Below, one piece after another: positions 6,768 to 20,406 of a stretch of 64,000 nt of DNA. The notes beneath the pieces were generated by a model. That model was given only the letters and a program-made list of their open reading frames with translations, ran no database searches and was not told where the DNA came from. The DNA is from a virus. Position 1 is the first letter of the stretch. Every line of letters begins with the position of its first letter. The translations under genes and the position numbers were made by a program. The stretch covers positions 1 through 64,000 of the IMG/VR virus record IMGVR_UViG_3300043811_000032; one strand, given 5' to 3'.

Positions 6768-8012
6768 TCAGTTGCCGCTCGCGTCGCCGAGCCCGACGTA
6801 CGCCGACACCGTAGTTGCACTCTGGTTGGCTAGCGTCATCGGCTTGGAGAGTGCCGGCAGACCATCGCCCCGCCATACTACTCGGAACGCCGCTTGGTTC
6901 TGCAGGAATGCCCACTGGTCGCTGTAGTCGATAAACAGCCCGCGATGGCCGATGATGTAGAGAGCCGGATCAAACAGCACCACGCAGCCGTCTTGCGGCG
7001 CGGCCACGCCGACATCCGGCAGCTTCTCGGTCTCGTAGAACGGCCGACCGTAGAGCAGGCCCTGGCTACCATCCTCACCGGGGATGTAGTAGAGAATGCC
7101 GCCGAGGCCGGTGAGGTTGGCGATGAACTGCATGGCGCCGGGGCTCATCGCCCACACTGCCCGCTTCTTGCTCTGTGGCAGAAGCCGCTGGTACATGTTA
7201 CTCAGGTCGGTCTGCGTCACGGTGCCGTTCACTTGCCGTGCCACCTTGAGCAGGCCGGGACATTGCAGGATGCCCTGCGGACCCGAGCTGTCGAACTGAC
7301 CGGTGAAGAAGTTCTGGTCCGTCCACCACGCCACGGCCCTCGTCGTGAACTGACGGATGAAGGCGTCGAGTCCGGGGTAGTCCTGCATCAACTGGTTGCT
7401 CGCCAGCAGATAGCCGTCGAGGTCGGTCGTGGTCAGTTCTACGGACCTGAACGATGGCTCGGTCTCGCTGATACCGCTGCCCTGCGTCTGGTTGAAGCTC
7501 ATCACCATGCCGGCGAACAGGTTGGTGATGCCGCTGGACGCGCTGGGTGTGGCAGCAGAGCCGGTCGGTGCCTTGTTGGGTGCCGTCACCGTCGGGTCGG
7601 GCAGCGGCATCATCAGCGTGTTGCTGGTCATCGGTTGGACGAAGGCGCGGGGCCAGAAGATGGAGTCCTCCGCCACGTCCTGCATCAGACCGTAGGCGTA
7701 CTCGTAGGGCACGAGGGCTCCGCCGGTGCCGAGGGTCAGCTCCGACAGGCTCGGGCTGGCCACCTTCTGCACGCCCCAGCCGGAGCGGTAGACCTTGTCG
7801 ATGCGCCGCACGGCCTCTTCGCGGACGATGCCCGGTCCCTTGTCGATCCCCTTGCCGCGGAGATCGTCGGAGATGGACTCGCACAGCTTGTAGCTCTTGG
7901 CCTTGACGACGCAGTGGAGCCACTCGCCGAATGACTTTTCCACGTTGCCAACCATCTCAGGTGGTGGAGCGTTGACTCCGGCCATTGTCTTGGTCTTCAT
8001 TTCGATCCTCAT
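6768..8012 (-). CDS. Major capsid protein, HK97 fold
   Basis: 414 residues from ATG 8012; a second ATG lies four codons in (8000), and neither has a strong ribosome site. The sequence follows the HK97-type pattern: a helical N-terminal delta-like region (1-90), then SELTLGTGGALVPYEYAYGLM, SIFWPRAFVQPMTSNTLMMPLPD, an E-loop-like strand set, a central DGYLLASNQLMQDYPGLDAFIRQ spine helix, NFFTGQFDSSGPQGIL, and a P-domain end including GCVVLFDPALYIIGHRGLFIDYS. It lies in the expected position between portal and protease genes on the same strand. It forms the icosahedral shell. Confidence 0.9.
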   Translation of the reverse strand: MRIEMKTKTMAGVNAPPPEMVGNVEKSFGEWLHCVVKAKSYKLCESISDDLRGKGIDKGPGIVREEAVRRIDKVYRSGWGVQKVASPSLSELTLGTGGALVPYEYAYGLMQDVAEDSIFWPRAFVQPMTSNTLMMPLPDPTVTAPNKAPTGSAATPSASSGITNLFAGMVMSFNQTQGSGISETEPSFRSVELTTTDLDGYLLASNQLMQDYPGLDAFIRQFTTRAVAWWTDQNFFTGQFDSSGPQGILQCPGLLKVARQVNGTVTQTDLSNMYQRLLPQSKKRAVWAMSPGAMQFIANLTGLGGILYYIPGEDGSQGLLYGRPFYETEKLPDVGVAAPQDGCVVLFDPALYIIGHRGLFIDYSDQWAFLQNQAAFRVVWRGDGLPALSKPMTLANQSATTVSAYVGLGDASGN

Positions 8013-9111: not shown

Positions 9112-10012
9112 CGACTTCCTCGCACACCACGGAGCCGTCGTACTGCTGCGTAAACGTCTTGGTCACCTTGCGCGCCGGTGGTGGTGCCGGCTGCTCGGAC
9201 AGCTTCTCCACGAGGGATTTCTGGATCGCCTGCTGCCGCTCCTCGTTCTTCTCCATCCGCTCCAGGGCCTTGCGGACCTGTCTGATCGCTTCGGTAGACT
9301 GCTCTGCTTGCACCCGCATATGCTCGGCCATCTCCGCCATCGCCTTGGCCACCGCGGCGTTGTCGTTGATGATCGGGTTCGGTAGTGGTTGCGGTCTCTC
9401 CAGCGACTTCTCGATCAGCCGTCCCTGCTCGCTGATGCTCTCTAGTACCGAGGTCAAGTCGACCGGTCCCGGCATCGCCTTGAAGATCGGGGCGAACGAC
9501 TCCGTCAGGGACTTGGCGATGCCCGTTGCCATCGTAGCGGTGTCTACGTAGACCACCGGCTTGACCACCACCGGCTCCACATTCTGTGCCAACCCCTCGC
9601 TGATCGACTTGGCCACCGGTGCCATGTCGATGTTGAGCTTGACGTTCTTGAGTGCCTTCTTGATCGCCAGCCCGGTCGCCCACGACATCGCCTTGCCGAT
9701 CTGGTCAGCGAGGTGGTCCGTGTCCATGTTCATCTGGACCGGCGGGTTCTTCTCCAGCCGCTCGACCGCCTTCTCTAGCAGTTGCACCTTGACCGTCAGT
9801 TGCCGGTTCTCGTCGGTCAGTCGGCGGTTGTCAGTGACCAGCTCATTGACTTTGGGAGGCAGGTCGAGCACCCCGGACTGCTCCAAGATATCCGCCGTGC
9901 CGTCTACCATTGCCTCGATGGCGGAACGGTCCACGGCGGGCAGCATCGAGTCACCGGAGGCTGCCGGGTCATAGTCGTCCCTGCTCAGCCACCTATCAGA
10001 AGTAGGTGTCAT
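9098..10012 (-). CDS. Long coiled-coil protein, scaffold candidate
   Basis: 304 residues from ATG 10012, overlapping the portal gene's stop (TGATG). Residues about 50-90 (VNELVTDNRRLTDENRQLTVKV...) and 225-280 (AEMAEHMRVQAEQ...ALERMEKNEERQQAIQKSL) predict coiled coils. The middle is amphipathic with repeated VEP/VDT strands. There is no zinc or catalytic motif. A helical protein between portal and capsid genes is where phages place an assembly scaffold, but the protein has no recognised family. Confidence 0.6.
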   Translation of the reverse strand: MTPTSDRWLSRDDYDPAASGDSMLPAVDRSAIEAMVDGTADILEQSGVLDLPPKVNELVTDNRRLTDENRQLTVKVQLLEKAVERLEKNPPVQMNMDTDHLADQIGKAMSWATGLAIKKALKNVKLNIDMAPVAKSISEGLAQNVEPVVVKPVVYVDTATMATGIAKSLTESFAPIFKAMPGPVDLTSVLESISEQGRLIEKSLERPQPLPNPIINDNAAVAKAMAEMAEHMRVQAEQSTEAIRQVRKALERMEKNEERQQAIQKSLVEKLSEQPAPPPARKVTKTFTQQYDGSVVCEEVDATE

Positions 10013-11994
10013 CAGTGTACCCTTCCGTTGCCGTTGGTAGATGGCCGCAGCAAGCCCTTGAACCGCTTGCTGAGCAGCTCTCGGACGTCCTGCTGTACCC
10101 GGCGCCTGTCCTCGATGCTCACACCAGTCGGTGGCAGCACGTCAGCTCCGTCGAGGGCCGAGTGCCCCGAGTGAGCAGTACTGTTTGGCACGTAACGCTG
10201 ACCAAAGTTGCGGGTCTCCAGTTGCTCGACCGGCACCGTGTAGCCCCCGGCCGCGCCGCTGCCCTCGCCCATCGCCTTGGGAGCGGATGGGGTTGGACTT
10301 GCAGTGCCGGTGCCGACCGACCCGCCGATGGCCTTATTCTCCTCGTCCTCGGCGAACTTCTTGAGCAGCCCGCACGCCTGCGATTCGTTGAAGTGGGTAC
10401 CGTCCTTGTGCAGTACGTAGCCCTCCGGCGTCCGCTCGATGAACCAGCGCCCGCTCTGGCCGTGGGCCTCTTGGTGACCATCGCGGGTCTTGAACCAGCG
10501 GAGCAGTGGACCGGCGTCCTGGTCCTCGTCCTTGTCCACGATCAGCGGGTCATCGTCCTCGGGGTTCGGGTTGAGCGCGATCTGACCGCCCGAGGCCCGC
10601 TGCATGGCCTGGTCCAGCTCGGCGTCGTCCTGCTGCTTCTCGCCGGTGACCCACGGCAGGATCTGGCCGTTGACGATGGGGTCATCACCGCCGAATGGAT
10701 AGGGCTCCTGGTTCTGCATCGTCCTTGCTTCGTTCGGGCTGCGCAGGCCGTTGGCCATCGCCAGCGCAATGTCAGCACGAGTATTCTCCTCGCTGTACAG
10801 CACCCGGTCGTCCCAGAAGCAGATGCCGGTCTCGCAGTTGGGCGTACGTCGAATCAACCCATGCGTGATGCGCTGGCTCAGGAAGCCGAGGAACGGGTTG
10901 ATATGGTAGCGGCAGAACGAGCGGAGCGGTGCGTAGTCCGAGACGTTGCCGCCTTGGTCGAGCCCCAGCAACTCAGGCGGCACCCCGAACGCGGCGAGGA
11001 TGTTCTCACGGAGCTGCTTCTCGTTCTCCACGTACTGCATGTCGACAGGGCTGAGACCGAGCGGCTTGACCTCCACGCCGGGACCGGTGATCAGCGGCTT
11101 GCCGGTGTTGTCCTCGCCCTGGAACCGACCGAACCACTTGCTGTAGTAGCGATTGAGCATCGACTCGTCGGGGTCGACGTAGTCCTCGCTCAGCGCCACG
11201 TGGAACGTCGGGATGGCTCCGTTCTTGTACTGGGCCAACCGGGCGCGAACGTGGGCGTTGTAGGTATCGATCCACTCGTTGATCATCAACGGCACACCCC
11301 AACCCTCGTAGCGGTTGAGGGGGCTGTGATCGTAGAACGACAGCACGTCATCGTAGGGGGCATACTGCAACGTGCCCCACGGACTCTGGATCGCGTACGC
11401 CTCGGGCATGCCATCCCGTCCGGTGACGAGCCGCATCCAGTGCGTGGGAATCACCCACACCTCGACCGGCACCCCGAAGGCGTTCCGCATCACCCACCAG
11501 TGAGCCTCACCGGTAAGCTTGAAGAACATTGTGGTGAACGCCCACAGGTCGTAGCTGCAGTCGAGCAGGTTCGGCAGGTTGAACAACCGCACGATGGGGT
11601 GGTCGTCGTCCCACGCCTCGAACTCCTCGTGCTCGCGTGGTCCGCCCAGCGCCTTCTTGCGCAGGCCGCGATACTGCTGCTGCTGGTTGCGGTGCCTGTG
11701 CAGCTCGGCGTAGGACTTGCGGTTGTCCATGCCGAGCGACTTGCACTTGCGGAGAACCTTCTGCTCACCCTCGTCCTTAGGAGTCAGGTTGCCAAGCTTC
11801 GGTCCCTCGCCGCCGGCCACCTCGGCCATCCAGGCCTTGATCGCCACGCCGACCCAGAAGTACATGCTGATGGCTTCTTGCCACTTGTACGCCTGGCCGA
11901 AGTAGGTCGCTCCACCGTATGGCGCATTGAAGACGCGGGGCACGAGCTGGCGACTGCTCGTAATGCGGGCTCGGGCTTTCTGTAGTATCTTCAC
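10012..11994 (-). CDS. Phage portal protein
   Basis: 660 residues from GTG 11994, which overlaps the previous stop (GTGA). The portal signature is clear: TYFGQAYKWQEAISMYFWVGVAIKAWMAEVA at the N-terminus, the central WVIPTHWMRLVTG...EAYAIQSPWGTLQYAPYDDVLSFYDHSPLNRYEGWGVP block, VEVKPLGLSPVDMQYVENEKQLRENILAAFGVPPELLG, and the NRYY and LNEART-like (SPNEARTMQNQEPYPFGGDD) segment. The last 150 residues are a low-complexity extension. The portal forms the dodecameric DNA channel at one capsid vertex. The terminase genes, usually adjacent, are here 35 kb upstream. Confidence 0.9.
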   Translation of the reverse strand: MKILQKARARITSSRQLVPRVFNAPYGGATYFGQAYKWQEAISMYFWVGVAIKAWMAEVAGGEGPKLGNLTPKDEGEQKVLRKCKSLGMDNRKSYAELHRHRNQQQQYRGLRKKALGGPREHEEFEAWDDDHPIVRLFNLPNLLDCSYDLWAFTTMFFKLTGEAHWWVMRNAFGVPVEVWVIPTHWMRLVTGRDGMPEAYAIQSPWGTLQYAPYDDVLSFYDHSPLNRYEGWGVPLMINEWIDTYNAHVRARLAQYKNGAIPTFHVALSEDYVDPDESMLNRYYSKWFGRFQGEDNTGKPLITGPGVEVKPLGLSPVDMQYVENEKQLRENILAAFGVPPELLGLDQGGNVSDYAPLRSFCRYHINPFLGFLSQRITHGLIRRTPNCETGICFWDDRVLYSEENTRADIALAMANGLRSPNEARTMQNQEPYPFGGDDPIVNGQILPWVTGEKQQDDAELDQAMQRASGGQIALNPNPEDDDPLIVDKDEDQDAGPLLRWFKTRDGHQEAHGQSGRWFIERTPEGYVLHKDGTHFNESQACGLLKKFAEDEENKAIGGSVGTGTASPTPSAPKAMGEGSGAAGGYTVPVEQLETRNFGQRYVPNSTAHSGHSALDGADVLPPTGVSIEDRRRVQQDVRELLSKRFKGLLRPSTNGNGRVH

Positions 11995-12314
11995 TTGCCC
12001 AGCACCTCCCACCCCAAGAACCTGTCCCCGTCCCACCGCGGCTCTACCGTAGGCAACTGATGCATCGTCAACGTAGCAGGTAGGTCGCGGTGCTCGATCA
12101 TGAACTCCAGCGCGTCGCCCTTAGGGTACGGTACCACGATCACCACGCGGGCGTCCTCGGGTATACCGAGCCCACGCTGGTCGAAGTCCTCGGTGACCTC
12201 GCAGCACTGCTGCTTGTAACCGTTCTGCCCGACGGTGCGCTGAAACATCCGCACCTTCTGGCACTGCGGGTGGTCGATAGGTGCCAGCATCAGTCCCATG
12301 CGGACGGTTGTCAC
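11991..12314 (-). CDS. Small protein upstream of portal, unknown
   Basis: About 107 residues. The start is uncertain: GTG 12314 has a GAGG site 4-5 bases upstream, and ATG 12299 is in frame. It contains three Cys (PQCQKVRMF...QQCCEV) and a beta-rich centre (ARVVIVVPYPKGDALEFMIEHR). It begins just after the terminator at 12331-12385. No family recognised. Confidence 0.5.
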   Translation of the reverse strand: MTTVRMGLMLAPIDHPQCQKVRMFQRTVGQNGYKQQCCEVTEDFDQRGLGIPEDARVVIVVPYPKGDALEFMIEHRDLPATLTMHQLPTVEPRWDGDRFLGWEVLGK

Positions 12315-12925: not shown

Positions 12926-13122
12926 TCGATCACCCCGTACCGTTCCTTACAAGCCCTACACCATCCCAAATAATCCCGCCGCTCAGGAGAGTGGGGCAGC
13001 ACAGCCATCTTCGGGTAGACGATCCAGCTCTCGGCCTGCGCCGACTTGAGACTGATGATCGTGCGGCAACCGGGACCGACGCACTCGACCCTAGCCGGCT
13101 TTGGTTTGACTACGAGTACCAT
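12922..13122 (-). CDS. Small zinc-ribbon-like protein
   Basis: 66 residues from ATG 13122, preferred because GGAGAG lies 8 bases upstream; ATG 13158 would add 12 residues and overlap more of the neighbour. The pairs CVGPGC and CRAC about 35 residues apart look like a zinc ribbon. It overlaps the preceding gene by about 30 bases. Function unknown. Confidence 0.55.
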   Translation of the reverse strand: MVLVVKPKPARVECVGPGCRTIISLKSAQAESWIVYPKMAVLPHSPERRDYLGWCRACKERYGVIE

Positions 13123-13426
13123 CTGGCCGCTCTCCGTTGGGGAGTACGAGGTGGTCATAGTGCTCTAGCGGGTAGTGGGTTTCTAAGTTCGTCAGCATCT
13201 CGGTCGGATCATCGCCGCCCGCTGTCGCGTGCCATTCGGTCGGCTTGCCTAGAGTATCGCAGCGGCTCCAGGCGATGAACATGAACGTGCTTGGGCCGAC
13301 CGGTGGTGGTTGCTCCATCTCGCAGTGGAACAACTTGCGGATGACAGCGATGGCGCTTGCCGCCCAGCACACCACGAACGTCAAGGCTATCAGGGCAGCG
13401 AGGATGCCGATCACATCGTCGCTCAT
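13091..13426 (-). CDS. Small membrane-anchored protein, unknown
   Basis: 111 residues. Residues about 4-29 (VIGILAALIALTFVVCWAAS) form one hydrophobic helix, followed by a soluble domain (STFMFIAWSRCDTLGKPTEWHA, ETHYPLEHYDHLVLPNGE). The soluble part probably faces the cytoplasm or periplasm; topology is not certain. It overlaps both neighbours. Confidence 0.6.
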   Translation of the reverse strand: MSDDVIGILAALIALTFVVCWAASAIAVIRKLFHCEMEQPPPVGPSTFMFIAWSRCDTLGKPTEWHATAGGDDPTEMLTNLETHYPLEHYDHLVLPNGERPDGTRSQTKAG

Positions 13427-13712: not shown

Positions 13713-15095
13713 TTAATGTGGCCACACGGCCGAGATCGCGTTGAACAGATCCTGCCCGACCGCGGCGATGAACGACGGTCGGTGCACGATGCCGATGCCT
13801 GGGTTGTTCGCCTCCAACCGTTGGCACTCCTTGACCATCACCGCTCCCACCTGAGCTAGGCTAAGTCCAGTCGGCAACGGCGTCGGAGGTGGAGCGGGGG
13901 GCGAGGTGGGCACCGGTGGAGTTGGTGGTGGAGCCGGTGCCGTCCCGCCCAGTGCCACACTGGCGAACGCTTGACCCTTGATCGAGCCAAGCCCGCTCGC
14001 AGTGTCCCATCCCGTGGTCGCTGGGAATCCGTTGCCAATCGAACCCGTCACAACATCAGTGAAACACGTCGCTTCGTTGGCGTACATCAAGGCATTGGGC
14101 AGGCCGAGCGGCGGCTTGCCGGCGGCGAGCAGCAGGGCGTTGACCCCGGCGAAGTACGCCGCCATGAACGGGGCCACTGCGCTTGTGCCACCGACGACTC
14201 CGAACGGCGTGTCCCAGCCCGTGGCCGGATCGCCGTTGGCACAGCAGTCAGGCTCTCCGCGATACCCGTTGGCTACCCCTACACTACTCTGCCAATTCGG
14301 TCGGGCGATGATCTTGCTGTACCCGCCGCCGCTTGCACCGCCGCCGGAGTTCCACGGCACCTGGTTGGCGATGCTGCCGTCGCTGTTGAGTGTGATCGTC
14401 GTCGCCCCGCAGTCCACACCCCAGGCACTGCAACCTGGATAGTCCGTCACCGGGATGCTCGTGCCGTCGTCGGGACCGTTGTCTCCGCTGGCGAAGGTAC
14501 AGGTGATGCCCTTGACCGCGAGTTGCTGGAGCAAGGACTCCATCGTCTGGATGTCGCTGCTGCTGTAACTGCTCTCCGGTCCACCCCAGCTCAGGCTGCA
14601 CGTGTCACCCGGCTTGGCATTGGCAAGCACGTACTGGTACGCCTCGGGCATGCCGCTCTCGGTATTCGGGGCGAAGACCACAGTGATATTGGCCGGTCGC
14701 GTGCTGCCGAACATGTAAGCGAGCGTGCCGATGACGTTGACGATGTCCAGCTCGACCTCGACGTCTGCGCTCTGCGGGTCGCCGGTGTAACTGTTGGTGG
14801 CGCCACCCACGCCAACTGCCATCAGGTTCGGCATCGGGAAGCTATGGGACTTGCACCAGTTGGCGATCTCCGTGCTGTCGAAACCGCCGCCCAGCTCTGG
14901 AATCCATACTGTAGGCATCGGGGCTGTGGTAGGCACGGACGGGAATCCGTACGCCTTGGCCATGTTGGCACCGGTGTAGCCGTTGCTGGGCACGGTCGCC
15001 AACTTGCCAAGACTGAGTCGATGGTAGTGATGGAAAACCCCGGTCGGCTTGGCCAGCACTCGCGGCATCACTCGCTTCGGTCTCACGGTGTACAT
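13713..15095 (-). CDS. Sedolisin-family (S53) serine-carboxyl peptidase
   Basis: 460 residues from ATG 15095 (AGGAGA upstream). The full sedolisin catalytic set is visible. EVELD holds Glu113 and Asp117 (kumamolisin Glu78/Asp82). Asp205 in ASGDNG is the oxyanion Asp, and Ser305 lies in GGTSAVAP. The calcium site appears as DVVTG...NGF...GWD..SGLG. The core starts at WIPELGGGFDSTEI (about 64). The usual propeptide of about 180 residues and a signal peptide are absent. Residues about 383-405 are a Pro-rich linker to a 55-residue C-terminal domain (LSLAQVGAVMVKECQRLEANN). Sedolisins are acid-active endopeptidases, normally secreted. Here the gene lies in a phage accessory region near virion genes, suggesting a virion-borne or lysis-related protease. 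Confidence 0.88.
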   Translation of the reverse strand: MYTVRPKRVMPRVLAKPTGVFHHYHRLSLGKLATVPSNGYTGANMAKAYGFPSVPTTAPMPTVWIPELGGGFDSTEIANWCKSHSFPMPNLMAVGVGGATNSYTGDPQSADVEVELDIVNVIGTLAYMFGSTRPANITVVFAPNTESGMPEAYQYVLANAKPGDTCSLSWGGPESSYSSSDIQTMESLLQQLAVKGITCTFASGDNGPDDGTSIPVTDYPGCSAWGVDCGATTITLNSDGSIANQVPWNSGGGASGGGYSKIIARPNWQSSVGVANGYRGEPDCCANGDPATGWDTPFGVVGGTSAVAPFMAAYFAGVNALLLAAGKPPLGLPNALMYANEATCFTDVVTGSIGNGFPATTGWDTASGLGSIKGQAFASVALGGTAPAPPPTPPVPTSPPAPPPTPLPTGLSLAQVGAVMVKECQRLEANNPGIGIVHRPSFIAAVGQDLFNAISAVWPH

Positions 15096-15538: not shown

Positions 15539-16183
15539 TCAACGACGTCCTCGACGGACGTTGACGTTCACGGCGTTAGCTCCCGCGGTACTAACGGCCT
15601 GCACGTTCACGTTGCTGCGACGCAGACCGAACAGTCCACGACGCTCGTTCACGTTCACGCTGACCGCATTGCCGCCGAGCCCTCCTACCAATCCGCTCCT
15701 GAACCCGAGTCCGTTAAACCCAAGCCCATTGAACCGGTTGAACCCGAATCGATTGTAGTTCACGCCGAGGATGCCTCGGTCGAAGAACAGCGGTGCCCCG
15801 TAGCCGGCTCCCGTCGCGTAGGACGTCGCCCCGTAGAAGAGCGGCGAGCTGTAGGTCACCTGCGGCGCGAGGTATGCCGCCTGCACCTGCACCGGCTGCT
15901 GCACCAGGTACTCGGTGGAGAACTCGGCCGGCGCACCGACGCTGGCAGCGATCTGCGGCTGGGTCACGGTCCAGGTCGACTGCACCACCCCGGTCGGAAT
16001 GGCGCTGGCGTAGCTGTAGGTCACGGGAACGGAGTAGGCACCGAACGACGGAGCCAGCACGCCACCACCGTAGAACGCGCGGTTGAAGAAGTTCCGGTGG
16101 AAGGCGTTGAATCCAAAGTGCGATGCCTGCGACGGGCTTGCCATCGCGAGCAATGCGACGACTGCGAGAATGATGCGGTACAT
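15539..16183 (-). CDS. Secreted repeat protein, Tyr/Gly/Asn-rich
   Basis: 214 residues. The N-terminus is a signal peptide (MYRIILAVVALLAMASPSQA, cleavage about 20/21). The mature part is low in charge, with Tyr/Phe-rich and Asn/Gly-Phe repeats (NRFGFNRFNGLGFNGLGF) and Asn-Val repeats (SVNVNERRG, NVNVQAV, VNVNVRRG). Together with 16553-16978 and 17667-18404 it forms a set of secreted Tyr/Gly-rich proteins typical of planctomycete exoproteins. Function unknown; outside-cell location inferred. Confidence 0.6.
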   Translation of the reverse strand: MYRIILAVVALLAMASPSQASHFGFNAFHRNFFNRAFYGGGVLAPSFGAYSVPVTYSYASAIPTGVVQSTWTVTQPQIAASVGAPAEFSTEYLVQQPVQVQAAYLAPQVTYSSPLFYGATSYATGAGYGAPLFFDRGILGVNYNRFGFNRFNGLGFNGLGFRSGLVGGLGGNAVSVNVNERRGLFGLRRSNVNVQAVSTAGANAVNVNVRRGRR

Positions 16184-16239
16184 GTCAAGTCTCCTCTGTT
16201 TGGAATAGAGCGGTCGCCTAATCCGAGGTTGCCGCTAAA

Positions 16240-16253
16240 CGTGTCGGAACACG
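16240..16253 (-). terminator. Possible weak hairpin terminator
   Basis: CGTGT-TCCG-ACACG forms a 5-bp stem followed by TTTAG on the minus strand, 13 bases after the stop of the gene at 16266-16556. It is short; terminator function is doubtful. Confidence 0.25.
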
Positions 16254-16265
16254 CTACGTAGTCGT

Positions 16266-16556
16266 TCAGGGCTTATTGGCCAACGGCGGAGTCGCAGCCG
16301 GGTCAACCGGCGTGGCGATGGTGGTCTCGATGCTGGTCAGTGCCGCCTCCAGCGCTGTCGTATCGATGGGTGCTGGGTTGGCAATGATCTGCCGCAGCTG
16401 GGCGATGTCCGCCGCGATGGCGGTCAGCTTGTTGGTCAACGTGGTGTTGTCCGCCGTCAAGCGGGCGACGTCCTGTGCTAGTGTGGCCATGTTAGTCTCC
16501 AATGTGGTCAGACGATCTAGTATGTCGTCCAGACCGGGTAAATGGTGGGGACTCAT
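16266..16556 (-). CDS. Coiled-coil protein, unknown
   Basis: 96 residues from ATG 16556 in an ATGA overlap. A heptad-rich helix spans most of the protein (LPGLDDILDRLTTLETNMATLAQDVARLTADNTTLTNKLTAIAADIAQLRQII), followed by a Pro-rich tail. The pattern resembles trimeric coiled coils of phage fibres or small membrane-associated structural proteins. No family assigned. Confidence 0.6.
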   Translation of the reverse strand: MSPHHLPGLDDILDRLTTLETNMATLAQDVARLTADNTTLTNKLTAIAADIAQLRQIIANPAPIDTTALEAALTSIETTIATPVDPAATPPLANKP

Positions 16557-16978
16557 TTCGCTACCGGTGGTTGAGGCTTGCGCAGTTCCTTGAGCAGTTC
16601 TTTGAGGTCGGCGATGTCCTGAGCGGACAGTCCATTCTTCGGTGCGACGGTCTGGGCGGGTGGTGCCGGTTGCAGAGTCGTCATCTGCGGGAGTCCTGCT
16701 GGTAACGTGAGCACCTGCGTGGTCAGCGGGGCGGTCGGCAGGATGATGCCGTAGTCGTATCCGTAGCCCTGCCGGTAGTAGCCGTTCCAGTAGCCGGCGG
16801 CGAACCAACGACCTCCGTAGATGCCAGCGGCGTAGTAGGTAAATTGCGGCGCATAGTATCCACCACTGTAGTAAGGTTGGGCATATCCATAGCTGTAGTT
16901 TGCAAAGTAGCCATACCCACCTGCCAAAGAGACCGCAGGGGATATTGCCAGCACCAGCATCGCAACTAGCTTGAACAC
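16553..16978 (-). CDS. Secreted Tyr/Gly-rich protein with C-terminal helix
   Basis: 141 residues with a signal peptide (MFKLVAMLVLAISPAVSLAG). Mature residues about 20-80 are Tyr/Gly-rich (GYGYFANYSYGYAQPYYSGGYY); the C-terminal helix (LSAQDIADLKELLKELRKP) resembles the helix before haem motifs in planctomycete cytochrome-like proteins, but no CxxCH is present. Function unknown. Confidence 0.6.
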   Translation of the reverse strand: MFKLVAMLVLAISPAVSLAGGYGYFANYSYGYAQPYYSGGYYAPQFTYYAAGIYGGRWFAAGYWNGYYRQGYGYDYGIILPTAPLTTQVLTLPAGLPQMTTLQPAPPAQTVAPKNGLSAQDIADLKELLKELRKPQPPVAK

Positions 16979-17583
16979 AGAGACCTCCTCTTTCTTCGCT
17001 TAACCAGAGAAGCCATCAACTGCAACTCCTCCGGCGAGAACAAGTGCCGCCAAAGAATCCCCCGCTTGATCCCAGAGATGGGGCACGTCGATACAGAAAA
17101 GTGTCTGGCTATATCCTCTAGATTTCTACCAGCGACGATCATCACAAATGCTTCTCTGACTTGTTCCTCGGTCAGTTTAGCACTGGCGTTTTCTACTCCT
17201 ACCTTGATTGGAGGGTCTTTAGGAGTCCCATGACGCAGGGCGTCTTCCCTGTTTTGTAACTGAGTACCCCAAGCCAGATTGTCTTTCGTATTGTCTAACT
17301 TGTCGCCATTTAGATGCCTGCACTCTTGCCCATCTGGGCACGGTCCGTGAAAAGCCAACGCTACTAACCTGTGGACGGTGATCGAACGCCTTCTGCCGTC
17401 TGCTGTAGTAAGTCCGACGTGTAGATACTGCTTTCCTTTAGTTCCTTGCAGACCCGGCTTAAGTCGTTTCCACCAGTCTCTAAATCCGTGCCTAGCGTTC
17501 TTACAGGTCCATACTGACCCGTCCGCACCAACCCTGTAACCCGGAAATCCTAATGACTCCAAGTGTCTGTAGACTACTGGCAT
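16966..17583 (-). CDS. HNH homing endonuclease, free-standing
   Basis: 205 residues from ATG 17583 (AGGAGA 7 bases upstream). Residues about 70-115 carry the phage HNH pattern TVHRLVALAFHGPCPDGQECRHLNGDKLDNTKDNLAWGTQ (split: TVHRLVALAF, then CRHLNGDKLDN and NLAWGT). A NUMOD4-like N-terminus and a C-terminal helix-turn-helix-like region (LTEEQVREAFVMI...DIARHFSVS) complete it. It would nick or cut DNA and spread itself between related phages. It lies between two secreted-protein genes with its own -10 box and an RBS-occluding hairpin. Confidence 0.8.
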   Translation of the reverse strand: MPVVYRHLESLGFPGYRVGADGSVWTCKNARHGFRDWWKRLKPGLQGTKGKQYLHVGLTTADGRRRSITVHRLVALAFHGPCPDGQECRHLNGDKLDNTKDNLAWGTQLQNREDALRHGTPKDPPIKVGVENASAKLTEEQVREAFVMIVAGRNLEDIARHFSVSTCPISGIKRGILWRHLFSPEELQLMASLVKRRKRRSLCSS

Positions 17584-17591
17584 CGTCTTCT

Positions 17592-17629
17592 CCTGGAAAG
17601 TTGCCGTGGATGCCGTACCGCTTTCCAGG
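17592..17629 (-). promoter_or_regulatory. Hairpin overlapping the ribosome-binding site of the homing endonuclease
   Basis: CCTGGAAAG (17629-17621 on minus) and CTTTCCAGG (17600-17592) form a perfect 9-bp stem with a 20-base loop. The last CCAGG of the stem runs directly into AGGAGAAGACG and the ATG at 17583. Pairing would mask part of the ribosome site, so translation would be low unless transcription starts inside the hairpin. Confidence 0.6.
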
Positions 17630-17660
17630 GACAGCACAGCACCACACGGCGTAGAAGGTT

Positions 17661-17666
17661 ATTATA
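17661..17666 (-). promoter_or_regulatory. Possible -10 box (TATAAT) for homing endonuclease
   Basis: TATAAT on the minus strand immediately after the stop of 17667-18404, with TTGAGG 15 bases upstream as a poor -35. An almost identical TAGTATAATA string precedes the plus-strand gene at 49880. Confidence 0.4.
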
Positions 17667-18404
17667 CTATTTCGTACCCCTCCTCAACTCATCCCAGATC
17701 ACCTTACGCTGAGCCGCCGGCACCTTCTTCGTCACGTCCGTGCCCGAGCCTGGCGGCATTGGCGTCACACAGCCGGGACACTTGGCGTCGCCCTCGACCG
17801 CCTGCAGCACGTCGAGCATCGTGAGCCGACCCTTCTTGCTGACCAACTGCACCTGTCCCTGATCGTTGAGCAACGTCACCCCGCCCGAACCGTTCGCCCC
17901 CTGGTGGCACTTGGCACAGTTCTGCTTGAGCACCTGGACCAGTTGCCCGCTGCCACCACCGACTGACGTGCCCCTAAAGCTCGTGTCGGCAGTCTCGGCT
18001 GATGCCACTGGCAACCCGTCGCCGATCTGCTGCGGCTGACCGGGCGTCACGGTAGTCACCCCGCCCACACCGATCTGTGCTCCCGCGTTGCCGTTGATCG
18101 TCTGCGTCTGCACTGTGCCGTTGCTCACTGCGCTGGTCGTGGTGGTAGTCACCGTCGAGCTGGTGATCTGCGGCACGCCGTAGACCTGGAGCAGTGCCTG
18201 TGGGGGCACATACTGGAACGAGAATGGCTGATAGAGCTGGACCGAGTTCACGTACGTCAGCTCGACCTGCGGCGGATAGTAATACTGCTGCGGAGCGTAG
18301 TAGGTCGGTGTATAGTAGCAGCTCCCGCAACTGCCGTAGTAGTGGGCGGCACCGGCGAAGGTCGGCATCAGCAGGAGCAGTGCAACCAGCAACGTCTTCA
18401 TCAT
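17667..18404 (-). CDS. Secreted protein with c-type cytochrome motif
   Basis: 245 residues with a signal peptide (MMKTLLVALLLLMPTFAGAA). The mature N-half is Tyr/Pro-rich (YYGSCGSCYYTPTYYAPQQYYY). Residues about 160-230 hold one haem-binding motif, QNCAKCHQG, followed by GVTLLNDQGQVQLV and MPPGSGTDVTKKVPAAQRKVIWDEL, the Met-Pro-Pro-Gly segment that supplies the axial Met in planctomycete cytochromes. A mono-haem c-type cytochrome in the cell envelope is the straightforward reading. The planctomycete host must supply haem and cytochrome maturation. An envelope cytochrome on a phage is unusual. Confidence 0.75.
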   Translation of the reverse strand: MMKTLLVALLLLMPTFAGAAHYYGSCGSCYYTPTYYAPQQYYYPPQVELTYVNSVQLYQPFSFQYVPPQALLQVYGVPQITSSTVTTTTTSAVSNGTVQTQTINGNAGAQIGVGGVTTVTPGQPQQIGDGLPVASAETADTSFRGTSVGGGSGQLVQVLKQNCAKCHQGANGSGGVTLLNDQGQVQLVSKKGRLTMLDVLQAVEGDAKCPGCVTPMPPGSGTDVTKKVPAAQRKVIWDELRRGTK

Positions 18405-18775
18405 GGCGCCTCCACGCAGTCCATCAGACCGTCTTCAATGTACTCGTATCCAGTCCCCTTGACAGCTTCTATAATCGCTTCAGCTTCCAGACGACCTATC
18501 CTTACCTGCCGCTTCTCGTGCGGGCTCGGCTCATTGCCCCTGATCGCGACTACACCGGCAGCCATTGGATACTCGTGATCGCCGTTAGCGACATACTCTC
18601 GTATATGGTTGGCCCAGGCACTACCCTGCTCTTCGAGCCAATCTGCAAACGCAAGATAGAGCATCACATCACCCGGTGGAGACAGATGCGACCACGACCC
18701 ATCCTTTTTCCACTTGGCCCAACGCTTGTCTCTGTCAACTCGCAGCGCCCGTATCCAGTCAGCAGGTCCAATCAC
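18401..18775 (-). CDS. TIGR02996-like (planctomycete repeat-companion) protein
   Basis: 124 residues from GTG 18775 (GTGA overlap). The segment DVMLYLAFADWLEEQGSAWANHIREYV fits the TIGR02996 signature (LVYADWLEE.GD...AEFIRLQ), a domain expanded almost only in Gemmata-type planctomycetes. Function of the domain is unknown. Its presence is one of the clearest host hints in the window. Confidence 0.65.
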   Translation of the reverse strand: MIGPADWIRALRVDRDKRWAKWKKDGSWSHLSPPGDVMLYLAFADWLEEQGSAWANHIREYVANGDHEYPMAAGVVAIRGNEPSPHEKRQVRIGRLEAEAIIEAVKGTGYEYIEDGLMDCVEAP

Positions 18776-20406
18776 CGTTGCCTCCCTCCGTCGCGTGCCT
18801 TTATTTTATCCTCACGAGCCCTCATCAGCTCCTCCCACGTGCGGCCTTTCTTTTGCTCTTGGTCGAGGAGTTGGCACAATTGCAGCGCGTGGTGATGGGC
18901 AGTTGCCTCGTAGTTATCCCTTCGGATGCCGCGACCCGAACCAATAGCGTTGCTGAGGCGAGGATCGATTCCAACTCCGAGAGCAAGAGCCTTCCGCGTG
19001 TGCTCTGGGCTGTAGCAACAGTTGATCGCGATCTCGTTGATCGTGAGCTGGTCTTGATGGTAGCCATAGACGATCCTCGCGATGTTGGCCGCGTTGTCCT
19101 GCGGGCTCATGCCGTTGCAGGAGAACAGTGCCTTGGCGTAGAGTGCTTGGTCGTCCTTGAGTGCTGCGTCAAAGTCCTGCTGGAAGAGCTGCTGCACCAG
19201 GTAGGAGTCGTCCTCATCCAGCACCAGTAGCCGCACGTTCTTCCGTATGTCCGTGACTAACCGCACCTCGTCGGCCACCTCCTTGAGTCCCTTGTCGTGG
19301 CAGATGATGCAACTCGCCCCCGGATAGATGCCCTTGTACTTGAAGTGCGTCTTCCGGTCCACGACGATGTTGGTGTCGCCAACATTGACCAGCTTGTCGT
19401 TCGCATCCGTGATCGCGTAGTACTGGAGCCGGTTGGGCAGACTCGCTATGAACTCCCCGGCGTCCCGCACCTTTTTCTTGCCATCGACCTTCTTTCCCTT
19501 GATGAACAGCAGCACGTTCAGCAGCAAGTCGTTCTCGTCCACTGAGGTCAGGTAATCGAAGCTGCTGTGCCGGTAGCCGAGGTTGGTGGTCTCTCGCACC
19601 AGTGCCCGGTTGTTGAGGCTCACCTCCGTGCTGTCGATCACCGTGCCGGCTGCCTTGATGTCCTCGTTGTCCTCGGGATGGTAGCGACCTATCTTGTCCC
19701 AGCTCTTCAGGTCCTTGCCGGCGCCGAGCAGCTCGTAGTAGATCGGCGCGAACAGGGCGTTGGCCACGAACCAGTCGGCCCGCACTATCGGGAAGTCGGT
19801 GCCCGTCAGCTTCGCCAGCTTGGCCACGCTCTGCTGGTTTAGTTCCGGTGCATGCTTCGTGACGAGAGTAAGCTTCTTCTCCCAGCACCAGTTGTACGTG
19901 TAGCCGTTGTGGACGTATGGCTCGCACTTCGTCTTGCACCATCCAAGGGCTTGTTCTTGCTGATGAAAGTACGGTTCGGGGAAGTCTTTGTCCGGCCTCG
20001 CCACCCGCAGCGGTCCGCCGCCATGCAGCCCCAGATTCTCCCACGCCTCGGGACTGATGCAGGCGTCCTTGAGGTTGAACCGCATCAGCCGGCCCTTGTC
20101 GACCGGCACAAACCCAAGCATCAGGACGTTGCGGCTCAGCGAGTTCCACGTGAACAGCACCGCCTGCACGAGTGCGAAGTACTCGTCGGGATGGATACCA
20201 GAGAGCGCAACGTACCGAGAGCAGTAGGCTTCGTTGGAATCAAGCGTGCCAGCGTCTGCGAGTGCCGATTCCACCGCCGCATCGTACCTGTAGACCTCCT
20301 TGTACGGGTCGAGCGGTTGGGCCGTGGGCGGCTCGCTCCGCAGCGGCGTCGAGAGCAGCGACCCGATCCCAGCTGCCAGCGTCTTGAGTGCTTCTCGGCG
20401 GTTCAT
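18772..20406 (-). CDS. Tat-exported cytochrome c-like protein
   Basis: 544 residues from ATG 20406. The N-terminus has a twin-arginine signal (NRREALKTLAAGIGSLLS). A single haem motif CIICH lies at about residue 365, after FKYKGIYPGAS. Residues 80-350 have a planctomycete-specific helical domain (TWNSLSRNVLMLGFVPVDKGRLMRF, WFVANALFAPIYYELLGAG). It is predicted to be exported folded to the periplasm or paryphoplasm and to bind one haem. It lies directly upstream of the other haem-motif gene, so the two may form an envelope electron-transfer or oxidoreductase pair. Function not proven. Confidence 0.7.
   Translation of the reverse strand: MNRREALKTLAAGIGSLLSTPLRSEPPTAQPLDPYKEVYRYDAAVESALADAGTLDSNEAYCSRYVALSGIHPDEYFALVQAVLFTWNSLSRNVLMLGFVPVDKGRLMRFNLKDACISPEAWENLGLHGGGPLRVARPDKDFPEPYFHQQEQALGWCKTKCEPYVHNGYTYNWCWEKKLTLVTKHAPELNQQSVAKLAKLTGTDFPIVRADWFVANALFAPIYYELLGAGKDLKSWDKIGRYHPEDNEDIKAAGTVIDSTEVSLNNRALVRETTNLGYRHSSFDYLTSVDENDLLLNVLLFIKGKKVDGKKKVRDAGEFIASLPNRLQYYAITDANDKLVNVGDTNIVVDRKTHFKYKGIYPGASCIICHDKGLKEVADEVRLVTDIRKNVRLLVLDEDDSYLVQQLFQQDFDAALKDDQALYAKALFSCNGMSPQDNAANIARIVYGYHQDQLTINEIAINCCYSPEHTRKALALGVGIDPRLSNAIGSGRGIRRDNYEATAHHHALQLCQLLDQEQKKGRTWEELMRAREDKIKARDGGRQR

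Follow-up and report, generated by a model that had tools for sequence, protein, structure and literature searches.

The closest described relatives of the protein reported here are kumamolisin and kumamolisin-As (MEROPS S53; PDB 1T1E, 1GT9, 1SIO), which share its fold, its E/D/D/S active site and the acidic residues of its calcium site. In the kumamolisins a large prodomain is joined to the catalytic domain by a linker, whereas the protein described below has only the linker, together with a Pro-rich C-terminal tail. The sedolisin prosegment serves as both a folding helper and an inhibitor, and the known sedolisins are acid enzymes from which the linker is taken off at low pH (PMC6278154). 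Cellular pro-sedolisins of acid-soil bacteria (L045-L123 in our numbering) belong to the same family and, unlike the phage protein, carry the prodomain (Pro-kuma_activ, PF09286) in all 37 sequences that were scanned.

With respect to viruses, the S53-type fold is represented by the sedolisins of Homavirus, Barrevirus, Terrestrivirus and Sylvanvirus, giant viruses of eukaryotes. These proteins, which are larger than ours (521-972 aa), were the best matches to it in BFVD, and with the S53 matches coming from giant viruses, no phage sedolisin was found among the BFVD matches. Phages are known to encode serine proteases of the subtilisin fold, such as the subtilisin of Bacillus phage vB_BcoS-136, but these subtilases are S8-like and match the present protein only distantly in structure (12% identity). 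No protein match was obtained in 50,697 annotated phage records, and no papers on phage sedolisins were found in the open literature, most subscription journals lying outside that search. S53 enzymes as such have been described before; to the extent of these searches, a phage lineage without the prodomain has not.

The gene in question lies in the window, by which we mean the whole stretch of 64,000 nucleotides that was analysed, positions 1 to 64,000 of the IMG/VR record IMGVR_UViG_3300043811_000032 (L001). This record of 98,691 bp carries an exact direct terminal repeat of 127 bp, on account of which the genome, that of a tailed phage, is probably complete. The phage setting given by the first-pass annotation is further borne out by matches to a portal protein (E=1.8e-43) and an HK97-type capsid protein (E=5.6e-21), located 1.7 and 5.7 kb downstream of the sedolisin gene in the direction of transcription. 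The coordinates in that annotation (13713-15095) were also correct; the strand, absent there, is minus, and the product has 460 residues. Its ATG at 15095 is preceded by CAGGAGACGACG, which contains AGGAG, and the stop codon occupies 13715-13713. The features of the region are as follows, all on the minus strand.

6768-8012, minus: major capsid protein of HK97 type (sequence match)
10012-12036, minus: portal protein (sequence match)
13091-13426, minus: protein of 111 aa, in which a single strong transmembrane helix is predicted (hydropathy); a 26% homologue has the same place in phage L021
13423-13701, minus: 92-aa gene after the sedolisin, with its own AAAGGAG ribosome site and a C-terminal hydrophobic helix by eye
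13713-15095, minus: S53 sedolisin of kumamolisin type, 460 aa from the ATG at 15095 (sequence match, alignment, model)
14985-15095, minus: sedolisin N-terminal segment, residues 1-37, the retained pro/catalytic linker, with HHYHR (low model confidence)
13944-14984, minus: sedolisin catalytic domain, residues 38-384 (alignment, conservation, model)
14757-14759, 14745-14747, 14481-14483 and 14181-14183, minus: catalytic codons of E113, D117, D205 and S305, respectively (alignment)
13860-13943, minus: sedolisin Pro-rich linker, residues 385-412 approximately (model, sequence)
13716-13859, minus: sedolisin C-terminal helical hairpin, residues 413-460 (model, moderate confidence)
15539-18404, minus: block of small secreted proteins at 15539-16183, 16553-16978 and 17667-18404, between the sedolisin and the CxxCH protein (signal peptides by eye)
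18775-20406, minus: secreted protein, Tat-like, bearing a single invariant CxxCH (alignment)

The 92-aa neighbor matched no family. Further genes of the operon continue round the circle and include connector- and tail-like ones, as judged by eye. A related phage, L021, has a portal 53% identical to that of the window phage and the same gene order around it, and no sedolisin was found across its whole record, which marks the sedolisin as an accessory gene of this phage type. Two further relatives (L129 and L130) likewise showed none within the stretch of each that was fetched.

The window protein is an S53 peptidase of the kumamolisin type. Specifically, a phmmer search of PDB sequences matched its residues 38-382 to kumamolisin-As with E=6.7e-49 (42% identity over the catalytic domain in a pairwise alignment), and an AlphaFold2 model built with 40 related sequences, in which pLDDT exceeds 90 across most of the catalytic domain, retrieved kumamolisins as the first-ranking structures in Foldseek (1zvj, E=4.5e-32, TM 0.88 by target). 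Given these E-values, a chance match is excluded, and the family and the catalytic residues named in the first-pass annotation stand, as does the fold for which it had proposed structure prediction. E113, D117, D205 and S305 align with kumamolisin E78, D82, D164 and S278, the catalytic positions listed for 1GT9 (PMC11593635). The order characteristic of S53 enzymes (ExxxD, GD, GTS), comprising the Ser-Glu-Asp triad and the oxyanion Asp, is present, and the E/D/D/S set is invariant in 34/34 phage proteins compared, with the L044 protein discussed below counted as phage. The calcium site that had been read from the sequence is supported at the level of residues: D347 and D364, both more than 90% conserved, align with kumamolisin Asp residues that we take to be Ca ligands, and a Ca2+ site is accordingly predicted in the C-terminal part of the protein. 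These features support the earlier suggestion that the enzyme is probably active.

The absence of a propeptide and of a signal peptide, also remarked on earlier, was confirmed by profile searches and a hydropathy scan. In known sedolisins the prodomain is typical, although it lies outside the peptidase unit, and a secretion signal is common without being universal. In the window protein the catalytic domain begins after a mere 37 residues, and no PF09286 match was found in the protein; the best 19-residue hydropathy value within the first 60 residues is 0.16, and no signal peptide was recognized. Supply of the prodomain in trans was ruled out, as PF09286 had no match anywhere in the 98.7-kb genome. 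What remains at the N-terminus, modelled as disordered over residues 1-31, resembles the linker of pro-kumamolisin (1T1E). The sequence of that linker is ARPHFRLRRR, some 30 residues ahead of the start of the mature chain; the N-termini of many phage sedolisins coincide with it (MHPYFK, MHSYIKR, MTVHPYIKR, RPYYHFR), and the HHYHR of the window protein corresponds near PHFR. By these alignments, such phage sedolisins have lost the prodomain and retained the linker between it and the catalytic domain, and this linker may act as an active-site plug. In three phages (L003, L004 and L005) a conserved N-terminal segment of ~90-140 aa (GIITHLKK.F...) with no match to PF09286 replaces the prodomain.

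At the other end of the protein, the Pro-rich linker and small C-terminal domain of the first-pass annotation are found in the model as a linker at residues ~385-412 followed by a hairpin at 413-457, whose helices (413-430 and 440-457) are predicted with moderate confidence. Similar Pro-rich tails occur in 11 other phage homologues, and many phage homologues stop where the catalytic domain ends.

A pattern scan of viral contigs with the single protein returned no relatives, whereas alignment-based profile scans of IMG/VR brought up 17 viral contigs with sedolisins at first and 39 in the end, thereby supplying the homologues in other phages for which a search had been suggested. PF09286 was recognized in 5/34 phage proteins, against 37/37 for the cellular sedolisins, whose N-terminal extensions span 131-351 aa; the prodomain-bearing phage copies are L006, L016, L009, L019 and L029, as assigned by their N-extension. 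As a check on selection bias in the cellular set, the profile was also run against 149 Acidobacteriota genomes, and 19/19 matches lay in open frames of at least 527 aa; nine prodomain-less phage-type copies searched in the same manner gave frames of 344-533 aa. Among the best 80 genome matches, the sole short one was L044, from an Omnitrophota MAG, which encodes a protein 60% identical to the window sedolisin. Its contig, of 16.8 kb, has five proteins in common with the window phage and is dense in phage-like genes, and is most plausibly a fragment of a phage. The gene was thus not encountered as ordinary host sequence with host flanks, its sole close match in a bacterial assembly being on this phage-like contig.

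The phylogenetic tree unites 26 of the prodomain-less phage proteins in a single branch (UFB 95, aLRT 84), within which the window protein, L044 and L022 make up a tight subgroup; the adjoining cellular lineages are Bryobacteraceae, Ktedonobacteraceae and Chitinophaga. Three other prodomain-less proteins (L024, L025 and L031) fall among actinobacterial sedolisins (100/98), and the prodomain-bearing copies from tail operons (L006, L016, L009 and L019) form a separate branch. Although the best tree has two origins, a single origin of all 29 prodomain-less phage proteins was left unrejected by the AU test (p=0.51); we consequently dropped the claim of two independent losses, and a double loss of the prodomain is a possible reading. 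A lineage consistently without the prodomain amounts to a natural experiment on the function of this domain, and with 39 viral contigs in hand the question can be addressed immediately. Prodomain-free acid proteases could moreover be simple to express.

The neighbors of the phage sedolisins are late genes of three kinds, belonging to lysis, morphogenesis or a secreted cassette. With regard to lysis, a GH25 lysozyme lies directly upstream of the sedolisin in L024, as does a weak SLT match, just below cut-off, in L026. In L030 a holin follows immediately downstream and a GH108 gene lies 2.1 kb off; the corresponding GH108 distance in L042 is 3.4 kb, and Amidase_2 is found about 4-4.6 kb from the sedolisin in L003 and L005. 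The neighborhoods of L010, L011 and L031 contain an endolysin profile match, an Rv2525c-type hydrolase and a transglycosylase, respectively, and whole-record searches of L008, L037 and L038 gave endolysin-type matches far from the sedolisin. This association is suggestive, in a list that is partly biased because several members came from looking close to the sedolisin gene. Several further candidates were set aside: an endolysin brought near the L013 sedolisin by circularity (no terminal repeat was found), a small hydrophobic-helix neighbor as the partner fused in L040 (a likeness by eye, BLASTP E=0.15) and a general enrichment of small transmembrane proteins beside the sedolisin, which was weak (10/70 near vs 17/191 far). 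Searching the records of the homologues for TerL_ATPase yielded nothing informative.

Building from these observations, we tentatively favor, at somewhat under an even likelihood, a role for the window sedolisin as an envelope protease that is made late, lacks an inhibitor domain, lies idle in the cytoplasm and becomes active after release. The enzyme would be synthesized late in the host cytoplasm with neither signal nor inhibitor domain, and the neutral cytoplasm, low in free Ca2+, would hold a calcium-dependent acid protease idle, such that a zymogen stage would be unneeded; the short retained linker could plug the active site until release. Once holin or lysis genes had opened the membrane, the sedolisin would come into contact with an acid, Ca-rich envelope or with soil water, where it would cut host envelope proteins, aiding lysis or freeing progeny from debris. 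Idling of this kind would make the inhibitor dispensable and an export signal unnecessary, and would place the gene among late genes, as with the late-operon position beside the portal in the window; it also predicts that phage sedolisins fold alone. The acid gating is extrapolated from characterized sedolisins. Extended to the family, the proposal becomes one of a prodomain-free phage S53 class gated by outside acid pH and Ca2+, with the linker as a minimal plug, which would constitute a third late enzyme beside endolysins and spanins, attacking envelope protein in acid habitats; in this general form we give it a fairly low probability. Envelope-directed phage proteases are little known in comparison with enzymes that cut peptidoglycan.

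The role as a late envelope protease is weakened by the window locus itself, near which no endolysin or holin was recognized (among the first 25 of 46 Pfam families) and in whose genome four endolysin families, searched genome-wide, had no match. It is weakened as well by homologues in neck and tail operons (L043, L006 and L009), which favor a location in the virion, and by the accessory nature of the gene, none having been found in L021 or in the fetched stretches of L129 and L130. A close rival, albeit one to which we assign a fairly low probability, is a virion-borne entry protease, in which an enzyme of the neck or tail would cut surface or envelope proteins at adsorption and the Pro-rich linker and helical C-terminus would dock it to the particle. 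In L043 the start and stop codons of the sedolisin overlap its neighbors, a tail-completion/Neck1 gene and the next gene of the morphogenesis region. In L006 and L016 the sedolisin sits within a tail-fibre operon. The window gene itself is in a late operon, close upstream of the portal, and the recurrence of Pro-rich tails would suit docking. However, the tail-operon copies L006, L016, L009 and L019 retain the prodomain and branch separately, the C-terminal tails contain no recognizable virion-docking domain, and the many homologues that end at the catalytic domain have no such tail. The proteins of L009 (9470-13978) and L019 (3398-7894) are ~1500 aa long and combine a prodomain, the sedolisin catalytic domain and Ig/cadherin-like domains, next to a collagen-like tail fibre; they are counted in favor of a virion role, each being a protease built into a probable virion protein.

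The first-pass annotation had offered a virion or lysis protease, and as a class this is reasonable, with homologues either beside lysis genes (L024, L026, L030, L042 and the L003 group) or in neck and tail operons (L043, L006, L016 and L009). Its rationale of a protein-rich planctomycete envelope does not sustain the argument, because prodomain-less copies are also found in phages that do not look planctomycete-associated, including the actinobacterial-type trio. A planctomycete host for the window phage itself is suggested by a DUF1559 gene together with the small secreted Tyr-rich proteins. DUF1559 genes abound in planctomycetes; the one in this record (L001:15777-16562, plus strand) is a pilin-like SBP_bac_10 gene, and the phage record L023 has one too.

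The secreted cassette raises another, less probable explanation, namely that the sedolisin is an accessory host-takeover enzyme which, with the secreted CxxCH and Tyr-rich proteins, would remodel the envelope or degrade host proteins and serve neither lysis nor entry. The CxxCH protein lies ~0.7-3.7 kb from the sedolisin in six phage loci (the window, L022, L023, L027, L028 and L044) whose sedolisins fall in three different branches of the tree. In L021, L129 and L130 the cassette is present but no sedolisin was observed (for the latter two, in the fetched stretch), as expected of an accessory gene. Nevertheless, the sedolisin has no export signal, unlike its cassette neighbors, and most of the prodomain-less phage sedolisins, at ~20 loci, are without the cassette. 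We judge this explanation improbable on balance.

That the sedolisin is a host gene brought in by misassembly or misbinning, or else a decayed and functionless copy, is very improbable, for although sedolisins are common in acid-soil bacteria by our genome searches and the nearest relative is in a bacterial MAG, the record has its terminal repeat and structural operon, the gene has a codon usage unremarkable within the genome (ranking 41 of 92 genes), the ribosome site is its own, the catalytic residues are invariant, and the 26 phage copies share one supported branch, with the L044 contig itself phage-like.

Concerning the CxxCH protein, its family comprises members in the window, L044, L022, L023, L027, L028, L021, L129 and L130, with the CxxCH aligned in seven, and no relatives were found in Pfam or PDB. 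It is perhaps a mono-haem c-type cytochrome of planctomycete-type phages; a structural model was too poor to be used (pLDDT 43). The adjoining protein at 17667-18404 (minus strand) is a second secreted protein with a CxxCH motif (NCAKCHQ).

Elsewhere in the record, a Pfam scan identified two proteins with the 5-hmdU DNA kinase helical domain, along with a thymidylate-synthase-like protein and a uracil-DNA glycosylase, from which hypermodified thymine in the phage DNA is probable. At ~26-42 kb of the window, genes resembling those for sugar nucleotides and glycosyltransferases follow one another in a long series that has the appearance of a phage sugar-synthesis block, and the Pfam families in the record include epimerase, GDP-mannose dehydratase, DegT aminotransferase, radical SAM and B12-binding.
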